This document shows, in pieces, positions 47,287-57,134 of a DNA stretch of 64,000 nucleotides. The notes under the pieces are model-generated. The model saw only the letters and a program-made list of their open reading frames with translations. It did no database searches and had not been told where the DNA came from. The stretch is from contig JAHEZL010000013.1 of the NCBI GenBank assembly GCA_023251095.1, positions 1 through 64,000 of the forward strand. The letters are read 5' to 3'. The translations under genes and the position numbers were made by a program. How positions within the stretch are numbered: the stretch's first letter is position 1; each line of letters begins with the position of its first letter. The stretch comes from Flavobacteriales bacterium (GTDB lineage Bacteria > Bacteroidota > Bacteroidia > Flavobacteriales_C > GCA-002722245).

Positions 47287-47772
47287 ATGAACCAAACAGA
47301 AGCTAAAAAAATCATCAAGGACACCGAGTATCTTAACAACAGGATCCTGGCGTTTAAAAATGCAGAAAGTACTACAGGGATGAAGTACTGCAAGGTAATT
47401 GATAAAAAATATCTTTTTTCAAGTACTGATGAAAACAAGAAACAGGGAGATGTTAAAATCCGCTTTAAAGATTTAATGACAGGAAAAGAATTCATGGAAC
47501 AACTTACTATCGTTGCCCGTGAATACAGCAAAAAAGTAGTTAAGGAGACGGACGATGTAAAAGCTGCTTTATTGACTATTCTTTCTGATGAGACTGAACC
47601 TGTTAAATCTTTGGAATGGGTGTTGAACAACTTAAAAGCGCAAGCTCCTAAGTTATATACAGCCAATAAAGACAAAGCTGAAGGTCATTTATTTGAATTG
47701 TGGTTGGAAAGCAAAGTAACACGTTCTACTTTTAAATCGAAAAACCTAACGGTTTATTCTTTGAAGAAATAA
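47287..47772 (+). CDS. Hypothetical cytoplasmic protein (161 residues)
   Basis: No signal peptide or membrane segment. Charged and mixed alpha/beta: MNQTEAKKIIKDTEYLNNRILAF at the start, a beta part (MKYCKVIDKKYLFSS...GDVKIRFKDLMTG), then helices (SLEWVLNNLKAQAPKLYTANK). I recognise no family. It has a consensus promoter and a strong palindromic terminator, so it is a well-expressed single-gene unit rather than part of the P450 operon downstream. Confidence 0.65.
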   Translation: MNQTEAKKIIKDTEYLNNRILAFKNAESTTGMKYCKVIDKKYLFSSTDENKKQGDVKIRFKDLMTGKEFMEQLTIVAREYSKKVVKETDDVKAALLTILSDETEPVKSLEWVLNNLKAQAPKLYTANKDKAEGHLFELWLESKVTRSTFKSKNLTVYSLKK

Positions 47773-47793
47773 TTAAGAAGAAGGAATATATAG

Positions 47794-47827
47794 AAAACGG
47801 CATCCGTCAATTGACGGATGCCGTTTT
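47794..47827 (+). terminator. Palindromic terminator upstream of the P450 operon
   Basis: A perfect 34-nt palindrome (arms 47794-47810 and 47811-47827, core CATCCGTCAATTGACGGATG) followed by more T to 47831. It separates the hypothetical gene from the P450 operon. Confidence 0.88.
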
Positions 47828-47841
47828 TTTTTATGTCTTAA

Positions 47842-47871
47842 TTGTGATTATTAATAAATCTGCCTAATTTG
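47842..47871 (+). promoter_or_regulatory. Weak candidate promoter of the P450 operon
   Basis: TTG at 47842-47844, 20 bases, TAATTTG at 47865-47871, one base short of TAnnTTTG. If used, transcription starts near 47878, only ~5 nt before the ATG at 47883, which would favour the later starts at 47904 or 47919. Confidence 0.3.
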
Positions 47872-47882
47872 CAGATGATAGT

Positions 47883-49295
47883 ATGCGAAATACTATTTGT
47901 TGGATGAATCTAAATAAAATGGAATTGAATCAGAATCCTCATACAGCAAGGAAAAAAAACCTTCCGCCTGTTGCTAAAGGAGCAATCCCTCTTGTAGGGC
48001 ACTTATTTAAATTTAAAGGAGATACTTATCGTTTTTTGGGTGAGAATTGTAAAACAATGGGCCCCGTATTTTCATTTAAGTTATTGTCGCGTAATTTCTA
48101 TGTATTGAATCATCCTGATTTCATCAAGCATGTTTTGGTAAGCAATGCAAAGAACTATACCCGAAAAAAATCCTATCAGTTTTTAGAGGAAATGCTGGGG
48201 CAGGGTTTGTTGACTACGGAAGGGGAGGAATGGAGAAGAAAACGAAGAATTGCCCAGCCTGCTTTTTACAAGGATCAGCTGGAAAGATTGCTGCATCAAA
48301 TGGAAGTGTCCATTAATAAATTTACCGACAATTGGGAAAACAGAGCCCCCGCAAGAATTGATCTGGATACCGAAATGAATCATTTGGCCCTGAGTATTTT
48401 GAGTTCTTCCATTATTCAAGCGGATTTAGAGCATCAGATACCTTTGGTAAAAAAACATCTTTTGGATGCGTTGACACATTTATCCAATAAGCGTTTCAGG
48501 GCAATAAAATGGTTGAACTACCTTCCCGGCAAAACAAAATCCGATGGTGAAAAAGGAATACAAGCCTTGAAAAGCATTGTGTCGGAAATCATAGCGTCCC
48601 GTAGGAAATCCACTGAAGAACACACCGATTTACTGTCGATGTTCATGTCGTCTACAGATGAAGAGACAGGAGAGAAATTAAGTGATCAGGAATTGCTGGA
48701 TGAAGTGATGACCATGTTTGTAGCCGGCCATGACACTACCTCTGTAGTGCTGACCTGGGCTTTTTGCCTGATAGCTCAGCATCCTGATATTGAAGAAAAA
48801 GTGGTAAAAGAAATCAATGATAATTTCAAGGAAGATTTTCTTTCCATGAGTGAATTGAGAAACTTTCCATATACTAAAATGCTGATACAGGAGGTGATGC
48901 GACTTTATCCTCCAGTTTGGAGTTTTGGAAGAAAAGCAATAGCCGACGATGAGATTAATGGCTATCATGTGCCGGCAAATACCTTTTGTACCATGCCGGC
49001 CATTTTTGTGCACCGTAACCCGGAATTCTGGGAAAAACCAAACGATTTTTATCCTGAGCATTTTTTGCCTGAAAAGGTAAAGGCCCGGCATAAACATGCC
49101 TATTTCCCCTTTAGTGCCGGTCAGCATTTGTGTATAGGAGAACATTATGCATTGATGGAAATACAGTTGGTACTCATCCACCTGCTCAAAAAATATAAAA
49201 TCACACTGGAGTCTGATCAACCCATTGAAATGCAATTGCTGATCACTTTAAAGCCAAAAGACATCGTTTATGCCCATTTTGAAAAACGAAAATAA
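47883..49295 (+). CDS. Cytochrome P450
   Basis: The 470-residue monooxygenase has all P450 landmarks: PPVAKGAIPLVGHL near the N-terminus, the I-helix oxygen-binding motif AGHDTTS (residues 281-287), ExxR in EVMRLYPP (Glu337, Arg340), and the haem loop FSAGQHLCIG with Cys417. Overall it resembles bacterial CYP4/CYP102-like fatty-acid hydroxylases (TTEGEEWRRKRRIAQPAF). No membrane anchor is seen. Starts at 47904 and 47919 (after AAATAAA) are also possible. No ferredoxin or reductase gene is adjacent. It is the first gene of a five-gene operon and probably hydroxylates the pathway's lipophilic substrate (inference). Confidence 0.93.
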   Translation: MRNTICWMNLNKMELNQNPHTARKKNLPPVAKGAIPLVGHLFKFKGDTYRFLGENCKTMGPVFSFKLLSRNFYVLNHPDFIKHVLVSNAKNYTRKKSYQFLEEMLGQGLLTTEGEEWRRKRRIAQPAFYKDQLERLLHQMEVSINKFTDNWENRAPARIDLDTEMNHLALSILSSSIIQADLEHQIPLVKKHLLDALTHLSNKRFRAIKWLNYLPGKTKSDGEKGIQALKSIVSEIIASRRKSTEEHTDLLSMFMSSTDEETGEKLSDQELLDEVMTMFVAGHDTTSVVLTWAFCLIAQHPDIEEKVVKEINDNFKEDFLSMSELRNFPYTKMLIQEVMRLYPPVWSFGRKAIADDEINGYHVPANTFCTMPAIFVHRNPEFWEKPNDFYPEHFLPEKVKARHKHAYFPFSAGQHLCIGEHYALMEIQLVLIHLLKKYKITLESDQPIEMQLLITLKPKDIVYAHFEKRK

Positions 49296-49303
49296 TTTAT
49301 CTT

Positions 49304-50065
49304 ATGGATTCATATACAGAAAAGCCTTGGCTTAGCTATAGAAATGACATCATTGATTTTTTAAATTTAAGGAAGGATCAAAATCCTGCATGCGCTATAT
49401 TTGAAGCGGATATTACTAAGGCAACACAAATTATTACTAAACATAAAGACAGGAATCCTTCAAATTCTACCCTCGCGTATTTGTTGTGGTGTTACGCACA
49501 AGCCATTAAAAAACATCCGGAGATGCAGGCCATCAAAAAAGGGAAAAAACTTATTTTGTTTGATGATGTTGATATCACAATGATATTTGAAAAAACACTT
49601 CCCAACGGAGAAAAGGCTCCTGTTCCTCATATTTTTCGTTCGGTTCAAAATAAATCTTATGCTGATATTAAAGCAGAAATCCTGAGTTTGAAAGACAAAG
49701 ATTTGTCAGAAATAAACAAAAGAAAGAAGAGTCGGTTTTTTAAAGTATTACCTGCTTTTTTACGAATGTCCATTTTAAAAATGGCGCTAAAAGATCCTGT
49801 TCGCCGGAAGCAGGCATTGGGAACAGTTGCTTTTACTACGCTGGGACTTACCGTAAGAAACAGAAAGTTCTGGCCGGTACCTATCGGTCCTTATCCATGC
49901 TCCATAGCCGCGGGTTCTTCCGTAATTGATAAAGGAATACAGGGCGATAAAAATATTTGGTGCTTAACGATCAGTTTTGATCACAATATGAATGACGGGG
50001 CTCCGGCAGTGCGTTTCGGTCAAACGTTTATTAACTTATTGGAAAGCGGGGAAGGATTATTATGA
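49304..50065 (+). CDS. Stand-alone E2-type (2-oxo acid dehydrogenase) acyltransferase-domain protein
   Basis: The 253-residue protein matches only the chloramphenicol-acetyltransferase-like catalytic core of E2 enzymes. An N-terminal region (RNDIIDFLNLRKDQNPACAIFEADITKA) precedes DVDITMIFEK. The catalytic motif near the end is FDHNMNDGAPAVRF, with His227 and Asp231-Gly232 (HxxxDG). There is no lipoyl domain and no E3-binding domain, so it is not part of a dehydrogenase complex. The fold transfers acyl groups from CoA or carrier thioesters, so acylation of the operon's product is plausible. It starts 8 bp after the P450 gene and overlaps the methyltransferase start by 4 bp. Confidence 0.8.
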   Translation: MDSYTEKPWLSYRNDIIDFLNLRKDQNPACAIFEADITKATQIITKHKDRNPSNSTLAYLLWCYAQAIKKHPEMQAIKKGKKLILFDDVDITMIFEKTLPNGEKAPVPHIFRSVQNKSYADIKAEILSLKDKDLSEINKRKKSRFFKVLPAFLRMSILKMALKDPVRRKQALGTVAFTTLGLTVRNRKFWPVPIGPYPCSIAAGSSVIDKGIQGDKNIWCLTISFDHNMNDGAPAVRFGQTFINLLESGEGLL

Positions 50066-50955
50066 AAAAAAATAAGCCAAGTGCCACCGCAATGTTTGTC
50101 GCCAACGGCATGTATTACAATATTCATCAGGAAATGCTGCAACAGGACATTCCTGAAGATGTGAAAAAATACAATGCGCAACTCATTGAGCATTTTTATG
50201 GAATCAAAAGTAAGGGCTCAAAACGCTGGCGCCTTTTCATTTGTAACATTGTGCAATTGTTTTCCATCAGAGGATTTTTTTTGCATTTCCTTATCCGGAA
50301 AAAATGCATAGAAAAGCAAGTGAAAGAATCGATAGCACAAGGATATGGTCAAGTTGTTATTTTGGGTGCGGGTTATGATACCTTGTGTTCACGATTGGCA
50401 GAACAACATCCAAATGTAAATTTCATTGAATTGGATCATCCGGCCACAGCTGCTAATAAAGTTGCTCTATTTAAGGACTTGGAGTGGCAGAAGTCGAATA
50501 TTAAATATCTCGCACATGATTTAAAAAATATTGATGCGGCCTTTAAAAGCAATGAAATCAATACGAGCTTAAAAACTGTTTTTGTTTGCGAAGGTGTTTT
50601 TATGTATCTCCAACAGGAAGAGGTAAAACAGATTTTAAATGCAGTGAATCAATATTTTAAAAGTGATTGTAAATTTGTTTTTACGTTCATGGAGGAATCA
50701 GCATCGGGCAACTATATGTTTAAAAATGCCACAGCTTTTGTGAAGTTATTGCTGAAACTGAAAAATGAACCTTTTACCTGGGGCATGAAACCGGAAAACA
50801 TTGGGAAATTTCTCGAAAGTAACTCATGGTATTTGATGGATATCTTCGATCATCAAAAATTAAAAAGAGATTTTTTATCCAAAGAAAACCAACACCTTCC
50901 TGTAGCGATAGGTGAAAATGTTGTGTGTGCTATAAACCACAAAAATGGGAAATAA
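50062..50955 (+). CDS. LCM-family (TIGR00027-type) SAM-dependent methyltransferase
   Basis: The 297-residue protein starts with the family pattern PSATAMFVANGMYY. The SAM site is VVILGAGYDTLCSRL (residues ~98-112), followed by FIELDHPATAANK, FVCEGVFMYLQQEEV and FTFMEES. This family (leucine carboxyl methyltransferase fold) methylates carboxyl or hydroxyl groups, often in polyketide-like or lipid products. Its neighbours suggest methylation of an acyl acid or its conjugate. It overlaps the gene before by 4 bp and the next by 11 bp. Confidence 0.85.
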   Translation: MKKNKPSATAMFVANGMYYNIHQEMLQQDIPEDVKKYNAQLIEHFYGIKSKGSKRWRLFICNIVQLFSIRGFFLHFLIRKKCIEKQVKESIAQGYGQVVILGAGYDTLCSRLAEQHPNVNFIELDHPATAANKVALFKDLEWQKSNIKYLAHDLKNIDAAFKSNEINTSLKTVFVCEGVFMYLQQEEVKQILNAVNQYFKSDCKFVFTFMEESASGNYMFKNATAFVKLLLKLKNEPFTWGMKPENIGKFLESNSWYLMDIFDHQKLKRDFLSKENQHLPVAIGENVVCAINHKNGK

Positions 50956-53494
50956 AACAAGATATAAAGTATTGCAGTATGGGATTTATCCTGTAACCAT
51001 GCTTCTTTCTGTTGTTTTGTTTTTTGCTTTGCAAGCTGTTGATGAAAAATACTTAGCGGCTACTACCGTGCCGGTTTTGTTTGCCATCCTCATTATTATC
51101 ATCAGTGAAAAATACCTGCCGTTTAAAAAAGAGTGGAAGCCAACTACAAAGGATTTTAAAAATGATGGACTCTATCTTTTGCTGATTCAAACCCTATTGC
51201 CTAAGATTTTTGTTTGGTTGCTGGCCTTGTTTACGCTGCGTTTTTTAAAGCGGAATGATTTGATCATTTTCGATATATGGCCTTCTCATCTTCCTCTCGG
51301 AATTCAGGCCCTGATGGTGGTGCTCATATCAGATTTTGCAAGGTACTGGCTGCATCGGTTGAATCATACTATTCCTGTTTTATGGCGCTTGCATGCGGTT
51401 CATCATTCGGTAGATAAAATGTACTGGATGAATACTTCCCGTTTTCATCCGCTGGAAAAAGCACTACAATTTCTAATGGATGTTCTTCCATTTATGCTGT
51501 TGGGGGTTCCGGAAGAAGTACTTGCCTTGCATTTGGTGTTGTATGGTGTGAACGGATTTTTTCAGCATTGCAACATCGACCTGAAGTTTGGCTGGCTCAA
51601 CTACATTGTGAGCAGTACGGAGTTGCACCGGTGGCATCATTCACGCCTTCCCGAAGAATCCAATAATAATTATGGTAACAATGTTATTGTTTGGGATCTT
51701 TTATTCGGATCGTATTTTATACCTGAAGAAAGAAAAGTTGAAGAACTGGGACTGATCAATAAAAACTATCCTTCGGATTTTACGGGCCAGATGAAAGCGC
51801 CGCTAAGAAACAATTACGATAAAATAGATTCGCCTGAAATAAGTCTTTCAGCTTTGCTTTTGAATTGGCTGATGAAAGTCAAAATTGCCATTATTAAAAG
51901 AACCAGCTACAAAGATTTTTATGAAGGAACTAAGCGATGTGCTTTTCAGCAAAATCAGGTTTTGTTGCGTATTATCAACAACAATAAAAACACATCTTTT
52001 GGTGAAAATCATTCATTTAATTCCATTGCTACTTACCAGGATTTTAAAAAGTTAGTTCCTGTAAACACTTATGAAGATTTAAAACCTTACATCGTTGAGC
52101 AGGCAAAAAACAAAAACACTAAATCAATAATAAGCGATGAAATTATCATGTTCAACAAAACGAGTGGTACTACATCGGAACCTAAATTGATACCGGTAAC
52201 CCGGCAGACTTTAAAAGGGCTCAAAAAAAGTCAGCAGATATCTATGTATTTGCAATATAAAAGTCAGTCTTTGGGTTATGTGGGGAAAGTTATGGGAATT
52301 GTAAGTCCTGCAATTGATTCAATGAGTGAATACAATATTCCCGTGGGTTCAGCATCCGGACTTTTTTATAAAAACATGCCTTTCTTTGTCCGCAGTAAGT
52401 ATGTGGTGCCGCACGCTGTATTTGAAATTGATGATTATGAATTAAAATACTACTGCATTTTGCTACTTAGCCTGCAACATACAGATGTCACTTATTGCGG
52501 AACTGCAAATCCTACTACATTTTTAAAATTGACTAAAATTTTAAATGAAAGAAAAGCTGATTTTTTAAAGGATTTAAAATCGGGTTCTGTTTCCGGCTTA
52601 GCAGAAAAATCTGAGATAAGAGAAGTGATTTTAAAAAAGCTGAAGCCTTCAAAAGAGAGAATAGCGGAACTTGAAAAAATATTTGAATCGCAGGAAAAGC
52701 TGGCCTTTCACCATTTGTGGCCACATATAAAATTGCTCACTACCTGGTCGGGAGGAAGCTGTGGTGTTGCATTAAAAACGGTTCTTGAACTGATGCCTGA
52801 AAACACAACAGTGATTGATCCTGGCTATCTTTCCAGCGAATTGCGCGGATCGATTACCTTCGATGCAAAAACGCAAGGCGGACTTTTTACTTTTCAGGAT
52901 AATTTTTTTGAATTTGTTGAACGCAGCAACTGGGAAAGCGAAAAGCTTGAATTTCTTCTTCTCCATGAGCTGGAAGTAAATAAGGAATATTATCTTTTTG
53001 TGACTACTTCGGCAGGGTTGTATCGTTATAATATGAATGATATTATAAAAGTAAGTGGCTTCGTTAATCAGTGTCCGCTTGTACATTTCATTCAAAAAGG
53101 AAAAGGAGTGTGCAACATCACCGGTGAAAAATTATATGAAAGTCAGTTGTTAACGGCTTTAAACCAATTGGGATTAAACTATTTATTTGTTCAGGTTTTG
53201 GCCAATGAAGAAACCTGTACTTACGAATGTTATATTGAAACAGATAAAACCATCAACAGCGATTCGGTTTCCGATCAGCTAGATGCATTGATTTGCGAAC
53301 AAAATATGGAATACAAAGAAAAACGGGCCAGCAAAAGATTGAAGCGCATTGAAATAAAAAACCTGAAAACAGGCGCCTTTGATTTAATTAAGCAACAATT
53401 CATACTCACGGGTAAAAATGAAAGTCAGTACAAAACCATTTTGCTGCAGTATAAAAAAGATATGGGTACCGACTTAAATCAATATCTGAAATAA
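50945..53494 (+). CDS. Fusion: fatty acid hydroxylase/sterol desaturase domain + GH3-type acyl-acid amido synthetase domain
   Basis: One uninterrupted 849-residue frame. Residues ~1-280 are a membrane di-iron hydroxylase: several hydrophobic helices and the His clusters HRLNH (137-141), HAVHH (150-154), H208 and HRWHH (228-232). Residues ~310-849 are a GH3-family (auxin-responsive type) adenylating enzyme. Its ATP motif is FNKTSGTTSEPK (403-414), the YxxSE motif is GYLSSE (627-632), and YRYNMND (693-699) ends the motif set, followed by VSGF and a GEKLYE stretch. The plant relatives form acyl-adenylates and couple them to amino acids. I infer hydroxylation of a lipid acid and its amide formation by one protein. 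Overlaps the methyltransferase gene by 11 bp; one base separates it from the enolase gene. Confidence 0.88.
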   Translation: MGNKTRYKVLQYGIYPVTMLLSVVLFFALQAVDEKYLAATTVPVLFAILIIIISEKYLPFKKEWKPTTKDFKNDGLYLLLIQTLLPKIFVWLLALFTLRFLKRNDLIIFDIWPSHLPLGIQALMVVLISDFARYWLHRLNHTIPVLWRLHAVHHSVDKMYWMNTSRFHPLEKALQFLMDVLPFMLLGVPEEVLALHLVLYGVNGFFQHCNIDLKFGWLNYIVSSTELHRWHHSRLPEESNNNYGNNVIVWDLLFGSYFIPEERKVEELGLINKNYPSDFTGQMKAPLRNNYDKIDSPEISLSALLLNWLMKVKIAIIKRTSYKDFYEGTKRCAFQQNQVLLRIINNNKNTSFGENHSFNSIATYQDFKKLVPVNTYEDLKPYIVEQAKNKNTKSIISDEIIMFNKTSGTTSEPKLIPVTRQTLKGLKKSQQISMYLQYKSQSLGYVGKVMGIVSPAIDSMSEYNIPVGSASGLFYKNMPFFVRSKYVVPHAVFEIDDYELKYYCILLLSLQHTDVTYCGTANPTTFLKLTKILNERKADFLKDLKSGSVSGLAEKSEIREVILKKLKPSKERIAELEKIFESQEKLAFHHLWPHIKLLTTWSGGSCGVALKTVLELMPENTTVIDPGYLSSELRGSITFDAKTQGGLFTFQDNFFEFVERSNWESEKLEFLLLHELEVNKEYYLFVTTSAGLYRYNMNDIIKVSGFVNQCPLVHFIQKGKGVCNITGEKLYESQLLTALNQLGLNYLFVQVLANEETCTYECYIETDKTINSDSVSDQLDALICEQNMEYKEKRASKRLKRIEIKNLKTGAFDLIKQQFILTGKNESQYKTILLQYKKDMGTDLNQYLK

Positions 53495-53495
53495 G

Positions 53496-54608
53496 ATGCT
53501 GAAAACTTTAGAATTCGTCAGTTTAAAAATTCCTTTCAAGTTAAGTTTTAAGCATAATTCTGCTGAAAGAAAAGAAACTCAAACATTAATTATTATTGCT
53601 GATGATGGTATATTCAAAGGTTATGGTGAAGGTTGTCCGCGGGAATATGTGACGAATGAATCCATGCTTACGGCAAACAATTTTTTTAGTAAAGTAAAAA
53701 GTATAATTATAGAAGAGATTTGTGATCTGGATTCCCTAGTGCTTTTTAAAAATAAAAATGCCCCTGATATCGAAAAAAATCATGCAGCATGGTGTGCGAT
53801 TGAAATTGCCTTATTGGATTTGTTTGCAAAACAAAAGCATTGTTCTGTAGAGAAATTATTGAAGCGGAATGAACTCAGCGGTGAATTTAAATATACTGCT
53901 GTTGTGGGGGATGGTTCTGTGAAATATTTTACGGAAATAGTGCGTCAACATCTGAAACTTGGTTTTAATGATTTCAAATTAAAAATAAGTGGCAATGCAG
54001 AAATTGACTATGAAAAAATAGCTATTTTAAAGGATTTGTGCAGCTCATGTACCATCAGGCTGGATGCCAATAATGTTTGGGAAAATACAGCGGATGTTGT
54101 TCGTTATATCAATAGACTACCCTTTCCGATTAGTGCTTTGGAAGAACCGCTTCAGGATAAAAAACTGGATAGTCTTATAGCACTTTCCAAAGAAATTAAA
54201 ACACCAATTATTCTTGATGAATGTTTCAATCATTTTGATGATCTGCAAAAAATAGCGCTGTATAAAGAAGCTTTTATTATAAATCTTAGAGTATCGAAAA
54301 TGGGCGGAATCATTAATTCATTAAGGATAGCTGATTTTTGTGTTGAAAATGGAATAGCAGTGAATATAGGTGCTCAAGTGGGAGAAACAAGCATTTTAAC
54401 TCGTGCAGCTTTGTTTATTGCTAATGCAATTAGCCCACATTATATTGGCTTGGAAGGTGGGTATGGAACTTTTTTATTGCAAAATGATCTTGTTGAAAAA
54501 CCTTTAATGTTTGGTGAAGGAGGAGTAATGGATCCGAAGGTTTTGTTGGATCATGAAGTAAATGGACTTCAGCTCAATGTTTTAGGGGATAATTTAAAAC
54601 TTCGCTAA
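53496..54608 (+). CDS. Enolase-superfamily enzyme (muconate lactonizing/dipeptide-epimerase-like)
   Basis: The 370-residue protein has an enolase N-terminal capping domain (FKHNSAERKETQT, GYGEGCPREYVT) and a barrel with the full catalytic set. This set is Lys161/Lys163 in FKLKISG, Asp190 in RLDANN, Glu216 in LEEPL, Asp241 in LDECF and Lys268 in SKMGG. The two opposed lysines are what epimerases, racemases and o-succinylbenzoate synthases need. The eighth strand reads GLEGGYG and lacks the DxD seen in L-Ala-D/L-Glu epimerases, so a dipeptide is not assured as substrate. It is the last gene of the P450 operon and overlaps the TonB receptor gene (opposite strand) by 15 bp. Confidence 0.82.
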   Translation: MLKTLEFVSLKIPFKLSFKHNSAERKETQTLIIIADDGIFKGYGEGCPREYVTNESMLTANNFFSKVKSIIIEEICDLDSLVLFKNKNAPDIEKNHAAWCAIEIALLDLFAKQKHCSVEKLLKRNELSGEFKYTAVVGDGSVKYFTEIVRQHLKLGFNDFKLKISGNAEIDYEKIAILKDLCSSCTIRLDANNVWENTADVVRYINRLPFPISALEEPLQDKKLDSLIALSKEIKTPIILDECFNHFDDLQKIALYKEAFIINLRVSKMGGIINSLRIADFCVENGIAVNIGAQVGETSILTRAALFIANAISPHYIGLEGGYGTFLLQNDLVEKPLMFGEGGVMDPKVLLDHEVNGLQLNVLGDNLKLR

Positions 54609-57134
54609 AACTCTAAAGTTCAGCAAGCGACTTGTTAAATGGTTGGGCACTGCATATTGCGTGTTGGCCACATCTTTGATCCAAAAATAACTTACGGTAT
54701 TTTCAATATCGAGCAAATTGAACACTTCGGCGCGCAGCATCAATCCATCCAGAAAGCGGAGCAGGCTGGTTTGTTTGATAGGTACCAATTGTTTTCCTTT
54801 TCGGAGGAGATTGTCTTTAATGACTTCATAAGAGAAACCGATGTCTACACGGCGGTAATCAGGAATGCGCAATACATTGCGAAATTGCACCGACCCCGGC
54901 ACTCCAAAGGGATAACCTGTTCCGTAGCTCAGGGTAAGGTGAAGTTTTAAAGCAGGGAAGCGTGGCATTTCATCTTGAAAAAAGAGATTGGCTGCAAAGC
55001 GCTGGTCGGTGGAGCGGGGAATGAATCCCGGATTCACTTTTAAACTGTCGGTAGCCACATTGTTGGTGGTGTAGCCGCTGTGAATTTCTTCTCCTTGTGA
55101 ATTGAAATAGCGGTAATAATAATTGTTGGTGATGTCTTCCTGAGTGGTCATGTAAGTGAGACTTAACCAGGATTCCAGTCCTTTTACAAATTCACCGTTC
55201 AGTCGCCCTTCAATTCCTCTTGCAAAGCCGTGTGAACTGTTTGTGCCATAGTAATTGATTTGTACCTGATCTACATCGTAAGGAATTAAATTGTAGAGGT
55301 CTTTGTAGTAGGCTTCTGTGGTGAGTTTAAAGGGGCGTTTCCACCAGTAAAAGCTGCTGGTCATAGCTATGCCATACTGAATAGAGGTTTGCGCCATTAC
55401 GCCTGTTTGTAATTGGTATTGCAAATTTCTTAGTTCTTTGTAAAAAGGGGGTTGCTGGTAAACGCCAACATAGGCGCGGTAAGCAAATTTTAAACTGTCG
55501 CTTGCTTTGTGGGAGGGGAGGTAGTTGAGCAATACACGCGGACTCACCACCACTTGTTGATTGTAGTCCCAGTAGTTGGCCCGAATTCCGGTGGACATTG
55601 TTAACTCTCTTCCGTTTTTATTACTGAACAGCGACCAGTTTCTTTGCAGAAAGGCCATGAAGCGATTGGTTTGTAATTGATTGTTGGCTTGAATCGAAAC
55701 GGGAAAAACAATCTGCTGACCGGTGTTGGGTAAGGAATAGCCCGCCGAATCCAGGTTTTGCCATTGTTTGTAGGAGGCATCAATGATTTCCATCTGGTAT
55801 TTCAATCCCCACAACCAGCCGCCTTTTTCGTATTTGTATTCGCCGTTCCATTCAAAATTATAAATGGTGGCGTTGAGCTGACTCCGCGTGTGATTGAGAA
55901 AGGAACCTGCGCCTAAATTAAAAGCTACTTTTCCGAAATCGGTACTTCCCAAATCATTTTCCAGAGAGTTAAGCGCATAGGCACCCAAAATATCGAAACC
56001 TACTTTTTCATTTGTGTTGTAGGCCGAGGTGTTGAATTTCATTTTTAGGCGGTAGTTCGGTTTGTATTCGGCCGAGAAGGCTCCGAAATAACTTTCAAAT
56101 ATATCGTCCTCTTTTCCTTCAAAAAATACTTTTAACTGAAAAGCATTGTTGATCCCACCAAACCTGGTTTCTCTGTTGGCAGGAATAGAGAAAAATTCAT
56201 TGCGTGCGATGTTTCCCAAAAAAGAGATTTCCCATTTTTTACCGAGAGGATAAGTGATGTAGGTTTGAAAATCAATAAAATTTGGTTTGTAAGTTCCCTG
56301 TGTTTCTGTGGAGTTGAGTAAATAAGCATTTGATTTTTGGCGGAAGCCCATCAGATAAGTTCCTTTGTTACGGGCGAATTTTCCTTCGGTATGAGCCCGA
56401 ACACCTAGTAAACTAAGGTTAAGCGAGTGGGCTATGGAATCGGGTTTTTTGTAGGTGATGTCCAGTACCGACGACATTTTATCTCCGAAACGGGCTTCGA
56501 AACCACCGGCATAAAAATTAAGATTGTCGACCATATCCGAGTTCACAAAACTCAATCCTTCCTGCTCTCCCGCACGCACCAGTAGGGGTCGGAAGATTTC
56601 AATGCCGTTGACATAAATTAAATTTTCATCGAAGTTTCCTCCGCGAACGGAGTATTGACTGCTTAGTTCATTGTTGTTGCTTACTCCGGGCAATGATTTT
56701 ATAATGTCGGTTGCGTCACCACCGGCCGAAACAAAGTTATTGAGGTGTTTCGCATTGATTTTTATTTCTCCCTTGCTGTTTTTTTCTCTTTCAATTTTTA
56801 TCACTTTAGTGGATAAAATATGGAGAGTCATTACCATATTTAAATTAAGCTTTTCACCCGGTGCCACTTTAATTTTTTTGATGATGGGCAGATAGTTGAT
56901 CTGGGTGAATTCCAGCGTGAAAGCTTTATTGGCCGGTAATTTTATGGCAAAGGTACCACTGTCGCCGGTGCTGTTTATTTCACGGAGTTCACTTACGTAT
57001 ATGTAAACGTCTTTAATTAAAGTTCCGTTGCTGTCTCTAAGGGAACCATATACTTCTCCCTGATCTTGCGCCAAACTTTGAATCGAACAAAAGGCAAGAA
57101 AAAAGAGAATGATATGTGAAAAGCTACTTTTCAA
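54594..57134 (-). CDS. TonB-dependent outer-membrane receptor
   Basis: The 846-residue protein has a signal peptide (MKSSFSHIILFFLAFCSIQSLAQ). A carboxypeptidase-regulatory-like domain follows (EVYGSLRDSNGTLIKDVYIYVS, residues ~25-100). Then come the plug (DATDIIKSLPGVSNNNELSSQYSVRGGNFDENLIYVNGIE, ~140-230) and a 22-strand-type barrel. The C-terminus reads RLLNFRVLAKF, ending in Phe. Substrate class is not evident; no SusD-like partner is adjacent. Its start overlaps the preceding gene by 11 bp, and its 3' end overlaps the enolase gene on the other strand. Confidence 0.9.
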   Translation of the reverse strand: MKSSFSHIILFFLAFCSIQSLAQDQGEVYGSLRDSNGTLIKDVYIYVSELREINSTGDSGTFAIKLPANKAFTLEFTQINYLPIIKKIKVAPGEKLNLNMVMTLHILSTKVIKIEREKNSKGEIKINAKHLNNFVSAGGDATDIIKSLPGVSNNNELSSQYSVRGGNFDENLIYVNGIEIFRPLLVRAGEQEGLSFVNSDMVDNLNFYAGGFEARFGDKMSSVLDITYKKPDSIAHSLNLSLLGVRAHTEGKFARNKGTYLMGFRQKSNAYLLNSTETQGTYKPNFIDFQTYITYPLGKKWEISFLGNIARNEFFSIPANRETRFGGINNAFQLKVFFEGKEDDIFESYFGAFSAEYKPNYRLKMKFNTSAYNTNEKVGFDILGAYALNSLENDLGSTDFGKVAFNLGAGSFLNHTRSQLNATIYNFEWNGEYKYEKGGWLWGLKYQMEIIDASYKQWQNLDSAGYSLPNTGQQIVFPVSIQANNQLQTNRFMAFLQRNWSLFSNKNGRELTMSTGIRANYWDYNQQVVVSPRVLLNYLPSHKASDSLKFAYRAYVGVYQQPPFYKELRNLQYQLQTGVMAQTSIQYGIAMTSSFYWWKRPFKLTTEAYYKDLYNLIPYDVDQVQINYYGTNSSHGFARGIEGRLNGEFVKGLESWLSLTYMTTQEDITNNYYYRYFNSQGEEIHSGYTTNNVATDSLKVNPGFIPRSTDQRFAANLFFQDEMPRFPALKLHLTLSYGTGYPFGVPGSVQFRNVLRIPDYRRVDIGFSYEVIKDNLLRKGKQLVPIKQTSLLRFLDGLMLRAEVFNLLDIENTVSYFWIKDVANTQYAVPNHLTSRLLNFRVLAKF

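Follow-up and report, generated by a model that had tools for sequence, protein, structure and literature searches.

A hydroxylase–GH3 fusion protein at the centre of an accessory operon in Flavobacteriales, with a possible role in making a modified N-acyl amino acid

The fused protein and its operon

A single gene joining a membrane di-iron hydroxylase to a GH3 acyl-acid amido synthetase was detected at 50945..53494 in the window, the 64,000-nucleotide (nt) stretch analysed here (positions 1 to 64,000 of contig JAHEZL010000013.1, assembly GCA_023251095.1, from a Flavobacteriales bacterium), on the basis of the open reading frame list, Pfam matches and fused homologues. Like all features described below, it lies on the forward strand. 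One unbroken frame runs from the ATG at 50945 to the stop at 53494 and encodes 849 residues, as an earlier sequence-only reading of this DNA had said; a stop or frameshift between the domains was looked for and none was found, and eight genomes share the fused frame. The N-terminal half holds an FA_hydroxylase domain (PF04116; residues 123-256, 51311..51712; 108 bits against a cut-off of 31) with the full set of His clusters, H137xxxH141, H150xxH153H154, H208 and H228xxH231H232. The junction, placed by eye from the C-termini of split hydroxylases set against the fused chains, falls at about residues 290-300 (51812..51844). Three GH3 domains follow (PF03321/PF23571/PF23572; cut-offs of 23.6): an N-terminal domain with the P-loop TSGTTSEPK (residues 323-613, 51911..52783; 223 bits), the central GH3_M domain with YRYNMND (residues 651-718, 52895..53098; 75 bits), and the GH3_C domain (residues 748-834, 53186..53446; 52 bits) with a conserved Lys in QYK, a residue with a known role in GH3 enzymes. 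GYLSSE is also present, and the motifs listed by the sequence-only reading are intact in both halves, with no loss of ATP-binding residues. The three GH3 domains also exceeded the Pfam cut-off in the five other fused copies and one split copy scanned, and across all 15 copies found the His clusters are retained, as are the GH3 adenylation motifs with minor variants (e.g., GYIATE in G741). Hydrophobic segments of the fusion lie within residues 8-202, with one more at 299-317 where the GH3 half starts. Judged from these features, both enzyme modules are apparently intact, in one chain and at the membrane. An AlphaFold model of the fusion (mean predicted local distance difference test, pLDDT, of 57.5 from a five-row alignment) was not used.

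The fusion gene is the fourth of five closely packed genes. Upstream of it are a cytochrome P450 (47883..49295; assigned by Pfam, with the haem Cys motif FSAGQHLCIG and AGHDT), a stand-alone E2-like acyltransferase consisting of a 2-oxoacid_dh catalytic domain (49304..50065; Pfam, HxxxDG present, no lipoyl domain), and an LCM-family S-adenosylmethionine methyltransferase (50062..50955; Pfam) that shares 4 and 11 nt with the adjoining genes; an enolase-superfamily (MLE subgroup) epimerase/racemase (53496..54608) begins 1 nt after the fusion gene. The spacings along the unit are therefore 8, -4, -11 and 1 nt. A terminator-like hairpin of 17 pairs with a T run (47792..47829) follows the 161-aa gene upstream of the P450, and a promoter scan was uninformative (19 sites, where shuffled sequence gave a mean of 23.9). 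The sequence-only reading missed this operon, which narrows the possible chemistry further than the fusion itself.

Fused and split forms

Distribution was sampled in the genomes of two phyla and in one species-wide scan with a single-sequence query, which with six peptide patterns returned two loci. The full-length fused frame occurs in eight genomes (the window's own, G024, G219, G310, G607, G812, G1015 and G1057), and the seven other fused homologues are 45-53% identical to the window protein across nearly its full length. The two halves are adjacent separate genes in the other seven genomes, one Flavobacteriales metagenome-assembled genome (MAG) and six Nitrospinota; the pair is fused or adjacent in 15 of the 15 genomes found carrying it. 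Because eight genomes share the fusion and seven have the halves side by side, an artefact or a chance joining is ruled out.

Within the sampled groups the fusion is sparse. When used as a query, it was positive in two of 60 relatives (the window's own genome and G024) and in two of the 244 genomes of the class of G607; among 299 genomes of the order of G731 there were two fused copies and one split copy, with six more genomes holding a hydroxylase relative only. It was not found in four congeners nor in the five other family members searched, and none of the 241 matching records in a plasmid search covered 80% of the fusion in one place. The E2-like protein gave four close matches among 395 genomes of its class (any match in 12), and the epimerase gave two close matches among 395 genomes of the phylum (five at E 1e-20 or better).

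In the Flavobacteriales MAG with the split pair (L028, G731), a 296-aa hydroxylase and a separate GH3 gene share an ATGA stop/start overlap. The split pair was also present in six of 77 genomes from the phylum of a Nitrospinaceae MAG (G730, G735, G738, G741, G743 and G747), where a hydroxylase of 290-297 aa is directly followed by a GH3 protein of 549-575 aa. The separate hydroxylases stop where the fused chain continues, and the fusion contains no added linker domain. A hydroxylase tree, from which four rows were removed (an own-genome paralogue, an own-genus paralogue, one long branch and one partial sequence), places the split Nitrospinota hydroxylases beside the fused G607 and G812 copies; the GH3 tree places Nitrospinota outside all Bacteroidota copies, with at least two changes between fused and split states. 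Since the two trees disagree on the placement of Nitrospinota, a single fusion with later fission and several fusions are both possible.

The neighbouring genes are conserved to different degrees. The epimerase gene lies directly downstream of GH3 in all 15 copies (that of G310 is cut by a contig end), and the P450 and E2-like genes lie just upstream in all nine Bacteroidota copies; this upstream pair is absent from five Nitrospinota copies whose loci include several kb of flanking sequence, and a search that had no positive control found no match to the E2-like protein in any of the six Nitrospinota genomes. The methyltransferase is present only in the window's copy of the cluster. Pairwise distances of hydroxylase, GH3 and epimerase co-vary across 13 copies (r 0.85, 0.83 and 0.79; none of 2000 permutations as high), as expected of jointly inherited partners; this comparison omitted G310, for its cut epimerase, and G738, for its short loci.

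In Nitrospinota, a hydrophobic protein of 144-205 aa is encoded ahead of the hydroxylase, and the four scanned had no Pfam match (L029, 9521-9970; L070, 6904-7521; L071, 10127-10591; L072, 10616-11119). It is a candidate extra subunit.

An accessory cassette

The five-gene unit sits between the 161-aa gene (47287-47772) and a TonB receptor gene. In two congeners, G003 and G004, gaps of 51 and 58 nt are all that separates the same 161-aa gene from that of the TonB receptor, forming an empty site (L110, 978-4037, and L107, 3537-6621, against 47287-57134 in the window), and each of these gaps carries its own terminator-like hairpin. The 161-aa protein is 94% and 89% identical in G003 and G004 and more conserved than its neighbours there; in two other congeners (G001 and G002), different genes flank the TonB receptor. 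The empty site in G003 and G004 marks the five-gene unit as an accessory cassette. The TonB receptor is ruled out as a member, since its gene borders the empty site as well. With the unit present in one of five genomes of the genus, gain by the window lineage is a simpler reading than loss in the congeners. The G+C content of the cluster (0.367, against 0.387 for the window) is at the low end among stretches of equal size, a weak sign of transfer.

Relatives of the GH3 half

The sequence-only reading called bacterial GH3 enzymes little studied, which is fair, though one of them, OlsH, was characterised in 2025. According to that report, OlsH is a GH3-like lyso-ornithine lipid synthetase from Singulisphaera acidiphila that makes N-acyl ornithine from a free fatty acid, ATP and ornithine, has an OlsI alpha/beta-hydrolase in its operon in the planctomycete arrangement, and has more than 7500 hits among bacteria (PMC12493201). 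The cluster GH3 resembles OlsH in its bacterial GH3 fold, three ATP motifs and lipid-gene setting, and it would be expected to carry out a similar ATP-dependent N-acylation of an amino acid. It differs in its fusion to a hydroxylase, in an operon where Pfam found no OlsI-type alpha/beta-hydrolase, and in its separate clade. The curated NCBIfam cut-off rules it out as OlsH itself: on the OlsH model (NF052613, cut-off 620) the window GH3 scored 77 bits and four further copies from the cluster scored 73-94, against 388 and 429 for the two other GH3 proteins of the window's genome.

In trees from which five duplicate partial rows had been removed, the 15 cluster GH3s group together (100/99) to the exclusion of the OlsH-type paralogues. 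Against plant GH3 structures, the fusion scored 115 bits (AtGH3.5, in one alignment of about 500 residues) and a Nitrospinaceae GH3 103 bits, with 65 bits in two pieces for the genome's own OlsH-type paralogue. We base this closeness to plant GH3 on the alignment scores and not on the tree, because of long-branch warnings where the plant, OlsH-type and Streptomyces branches meet. Plant GH3 enzymes (JAR1, AtGH3.5 and AtGH3.15), a kind that in plants attaches hormones to amino acids, share the fold and motifs but are distant and lack the hydroxylase domain; the cluster proteins end motif III in ND rather than GD and have stretches of their own resembling TWxGGSCG and QKGxG..TGEKL. PF13444, which we take to be the domain of OlsB/OlsF/GlsB-type N-acyltransferases, had no match in eight of ten cluster genomes, including the window's, and was found only in G1015 and G1057.

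Elsewhere, we observed a GH3 gene amid polyketide synthase, P450, aminotransferase, dehydrogenase, LLM oxidoreductase and thrS genes on a plasmid of Streptomyces sp. SGAir0924 (L097, 3228-12365). Its gene order resembles that of the borrelidin cluster, a likeness that one literature search did not confirm.

Relatives of the hydroxylase half

The nearest labelled family is OlsE, for which ornithine lipid head-group hydroxylation was reportedly described by Hoelzl et al. (2018). The OlsE model (NF052566, cut-off 475) matched the window hydroxylase over nearly its full length (positions 5-285 of 293) at 187 bits, and the five cluster copies scanned scored 160-200, against 71-113 for four other Bacteroidota homologues. 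The curated cut-off rules out the hydroxylase as OlsE. Both belong to the FA_hydroxylase superfamily, but the cluster enzymes form a clade of their own (85/93) among OlsE-like proteins, apart from two rhizobial OlsE proteins, of which the Rhizobium one passes the cut-off at 534 bits. OlsE hydroxylates the amino-acid (ornithine) head group of ornithine lipid, and hydroxylated lysine lipids occur in a Bacteroidota species, where the hydroxylation pathway is reported as undetermined (PMC4484230). The cluster hydroxylase family is one candidate for this hydroxylation.

Other OlsE-like hydroxylases were seen in different settings. In G1185 (L094, 6690-13256), one is encoded as two overlapping frames, perhaps broken, beside genes for a P450, an AMP-ligase, a GNAT protein and a DUF3419 protein (presumably BtaA-like), possibly a further lipid cluster. 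Plasmid copies (L098, 6001-6855; L096, 6992-8233) lie near efflux, helix-turn-helix/AraC-regulator or copper-ATPase genes.

The epimerase and the tailoring enzymes

The KxK motif, the opposite Lys and the three metal ligands of the epimerase are invariant in 13 of 13 aligned copies. The top PDB matches of its profile were N-succinyl Arg/Lys racemase 2p88 (160 bits) and dipeptide epimerase 3jva (154 bits), and its nearest solved structures include the dipeptide epimerases 1jpm, 3jva and 3q45; the model of the protein reached a mean pLDDT of 78.1 and a predicted TM-score of 0.82. N-succinyl/N-acylamino acid racemases and dipeptide epimerases share its catalytic lysines, metal ligands and fold, whereas identity is only about 20-24% and the cluster gene is tied to a GH3 gene. 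A D-x-D at the end of the eighth strand is the motif of dipeptide epimerases. In the 3q45 alignment, the only printed one that reaches this site, the cluster enzyme holds EGxYGT instead, with a family-invariant E320-G321. Enzymes that carry such a Lys pair work on the alpha-proton of a carboxylate beside an amide, N-succinylamino acids and dipeptides being examples (PMC8142540). An N-acyl amino acid made by the GH3 half would be such a substrate.

The nearest solved relatives of the P450 include entries for 3dbg (which we take to be CYP170A1), CYP46A1, BM3 and CYP4B1, making lipid oxidation plausible. The HxxxDG motif of the E2-like protein (H227, D231 and G232) is invariant in six of six aligned sequences, and with this motif and no lipoyl domain, acyl transfer to a hydroxyl is plausible. 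No solved structure matched the methyltransferase at E 0.001.

Pairs of E2-like and P450 genes that lack the hydroxylase and GH3 were also detected in other Bacteroidota (L073, L074, L075 and L078; L042 partial). Shared neighbours were seen only between L075 and L078, and the pairs look like a separate two-gene module.

Proposed pathway and alternatives

We suggest that the accessory operon makes and modifies an N-acyl amino acid (an aminolipid or lipoamino acid), with the fusion as its central enzyme, a proposal for which we see the chances as evenly balanced. Using ATP, the GH3 half would activate a fatty acid or some other hydrophobic acid and N-acylate an alpha-amino acid with it. The epimerase would then remove and return the alpha-proton of the N-acyl amino acid, inverting or racemising it, and the OlsE-like di-iron half would hydroxylate the product, with the amino-acid part as likely a site as the chain. 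In Bacteroidota, the P450 may supply a further hydroxyl group, and acylation of one such group is the probable task of the E2-like enzyme; the methyltransferase of the window's species may cap a carboxyl or hydroxyl. Because the epimerase needs an alpha-CH carboxylate, the GH3 product is implied to have one; likewise, the hydroxylase and P450 imply oxygenation and the E2-like enzyme implies acylation.

Several observations count against this proposal. Both halves miss the curated cut-offs (77 of 620 for OlsH and 187 of 475 for OlsE), and hydroxylases encoded in unrelated surroundings (three on plasmids, two in the Flavobacteriales order) reach 147-181 on the OlsE model, so the OlsE resemblance does not fix the substrate. 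The genome has two OlsH-type GH3 paralogues of its own, so the fusion GH3 need not supply basic aminolipids. Fold comparison of the epimerase gave near-ties among racemase, dipeptide epimerase and muconate cycloisomerase (Z ~31-33). Finally, the signal of OlsH with hydroxypalmitate was very weak (PMC12493201).

The order of steps could also be reversed, as the sequence-only reading had it: at the membrane, the di-iron half would hydroxylate a fatty or isoprenoid acid in its free form, and the GH3 half would receive the product, adenylate it and form the amide. The two modules share one chain with a short junction, and the hydrophobic residues 299-317 could keep the GH3 half near the membrane. 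We nonetheless regard this order as unlikely, since OlsE acts on the ornithine head group of the lipid (PMC4484230) and the amide step would accordingly come first by this precedent. What stands of the earlier claim is one pathway at the membrane, with the halves fused or adjacent in every copy; channelling by fusion is not required, as the halves persist as separate genes in seven of the 15 genomes. These split copies also raise the prospect that the fusion is functionally neutral, a stop-loss having joined two adjacent genes of one pathway and been kept by chance, for which the matching end of the split hydroxylases and the ATGA overlap in G731 also speak. We consider this possible but lean against it, given that genomes from two classes within the phylum of the window, as well as G1015 and G1057, have kept the fused form at 45-53% identity.

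Instead of a membrane lipid, the product may be a secreted small molecule, such as a signal, a metal-binding compound or an antibiotic lipoamino acid. The unit occurs patchily, as a cassette whose empty site is seen in two congeners, and includes P450 and methyltransferase tailoring genes, both in keeping with this, but the operon has no export gene and the adjoining TonB receptor lies outside the cassette, leaving a secreted product rather improbable. Least probable, and in our view very doubtful, is a GH3 half that works as a ligase on two amino acids or a short peptide, followed by an ordinary dipeptide epimerase. Dipeptide epimerases are among the nearest solved structures of the downstream enzyme, yet in the 3q45 alignment E320-G321 appears to take the place of the D-x-D, and a dipeptide ligase would be a strange partner for a membrane hydroxylase in one chain.

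Returning to the N-acyl amino acid pathway, its boldest form would be bacterial aminolipids of a previously undescribed class with an inverted (D-configured) head group. In this form, the hydroxylase–GH3 fusion would build and hydroxylate an N-acyl amino acid, the racemase would flip its alpha-carbon, and in Bacteroidota the P450 and E2-like enzymes would replace the usual 3-hydroxy-acyl route to the acyloxyacyl form, by a GH3 route distinct from OlsH/OlsI and common to Bacteroidota and Nitrospinota. We offer this as a speculation that is quite unlikely to hold in full.

Significance

A literature search, with most subscription papers outside its reach, found no paper on the fusion or the cluster. 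The enzymes are of known kinds in a gene set for which no description was found, and the same two enzymes that are fused here are separate neighbours in another phylum. The fused and split versions amount to an experiment set up by nature, in which one can ask whether the product changes once a membrane hydroxylase and an adenylating enzyme share a chain. Bacterial GH3 enzymes run into the thousands, and OlsH is the only one with an assigned reaction found in the literature searched; the cluster adds a second, distant bacterial GH3 group whose fixed partners make its product predictable and testable.

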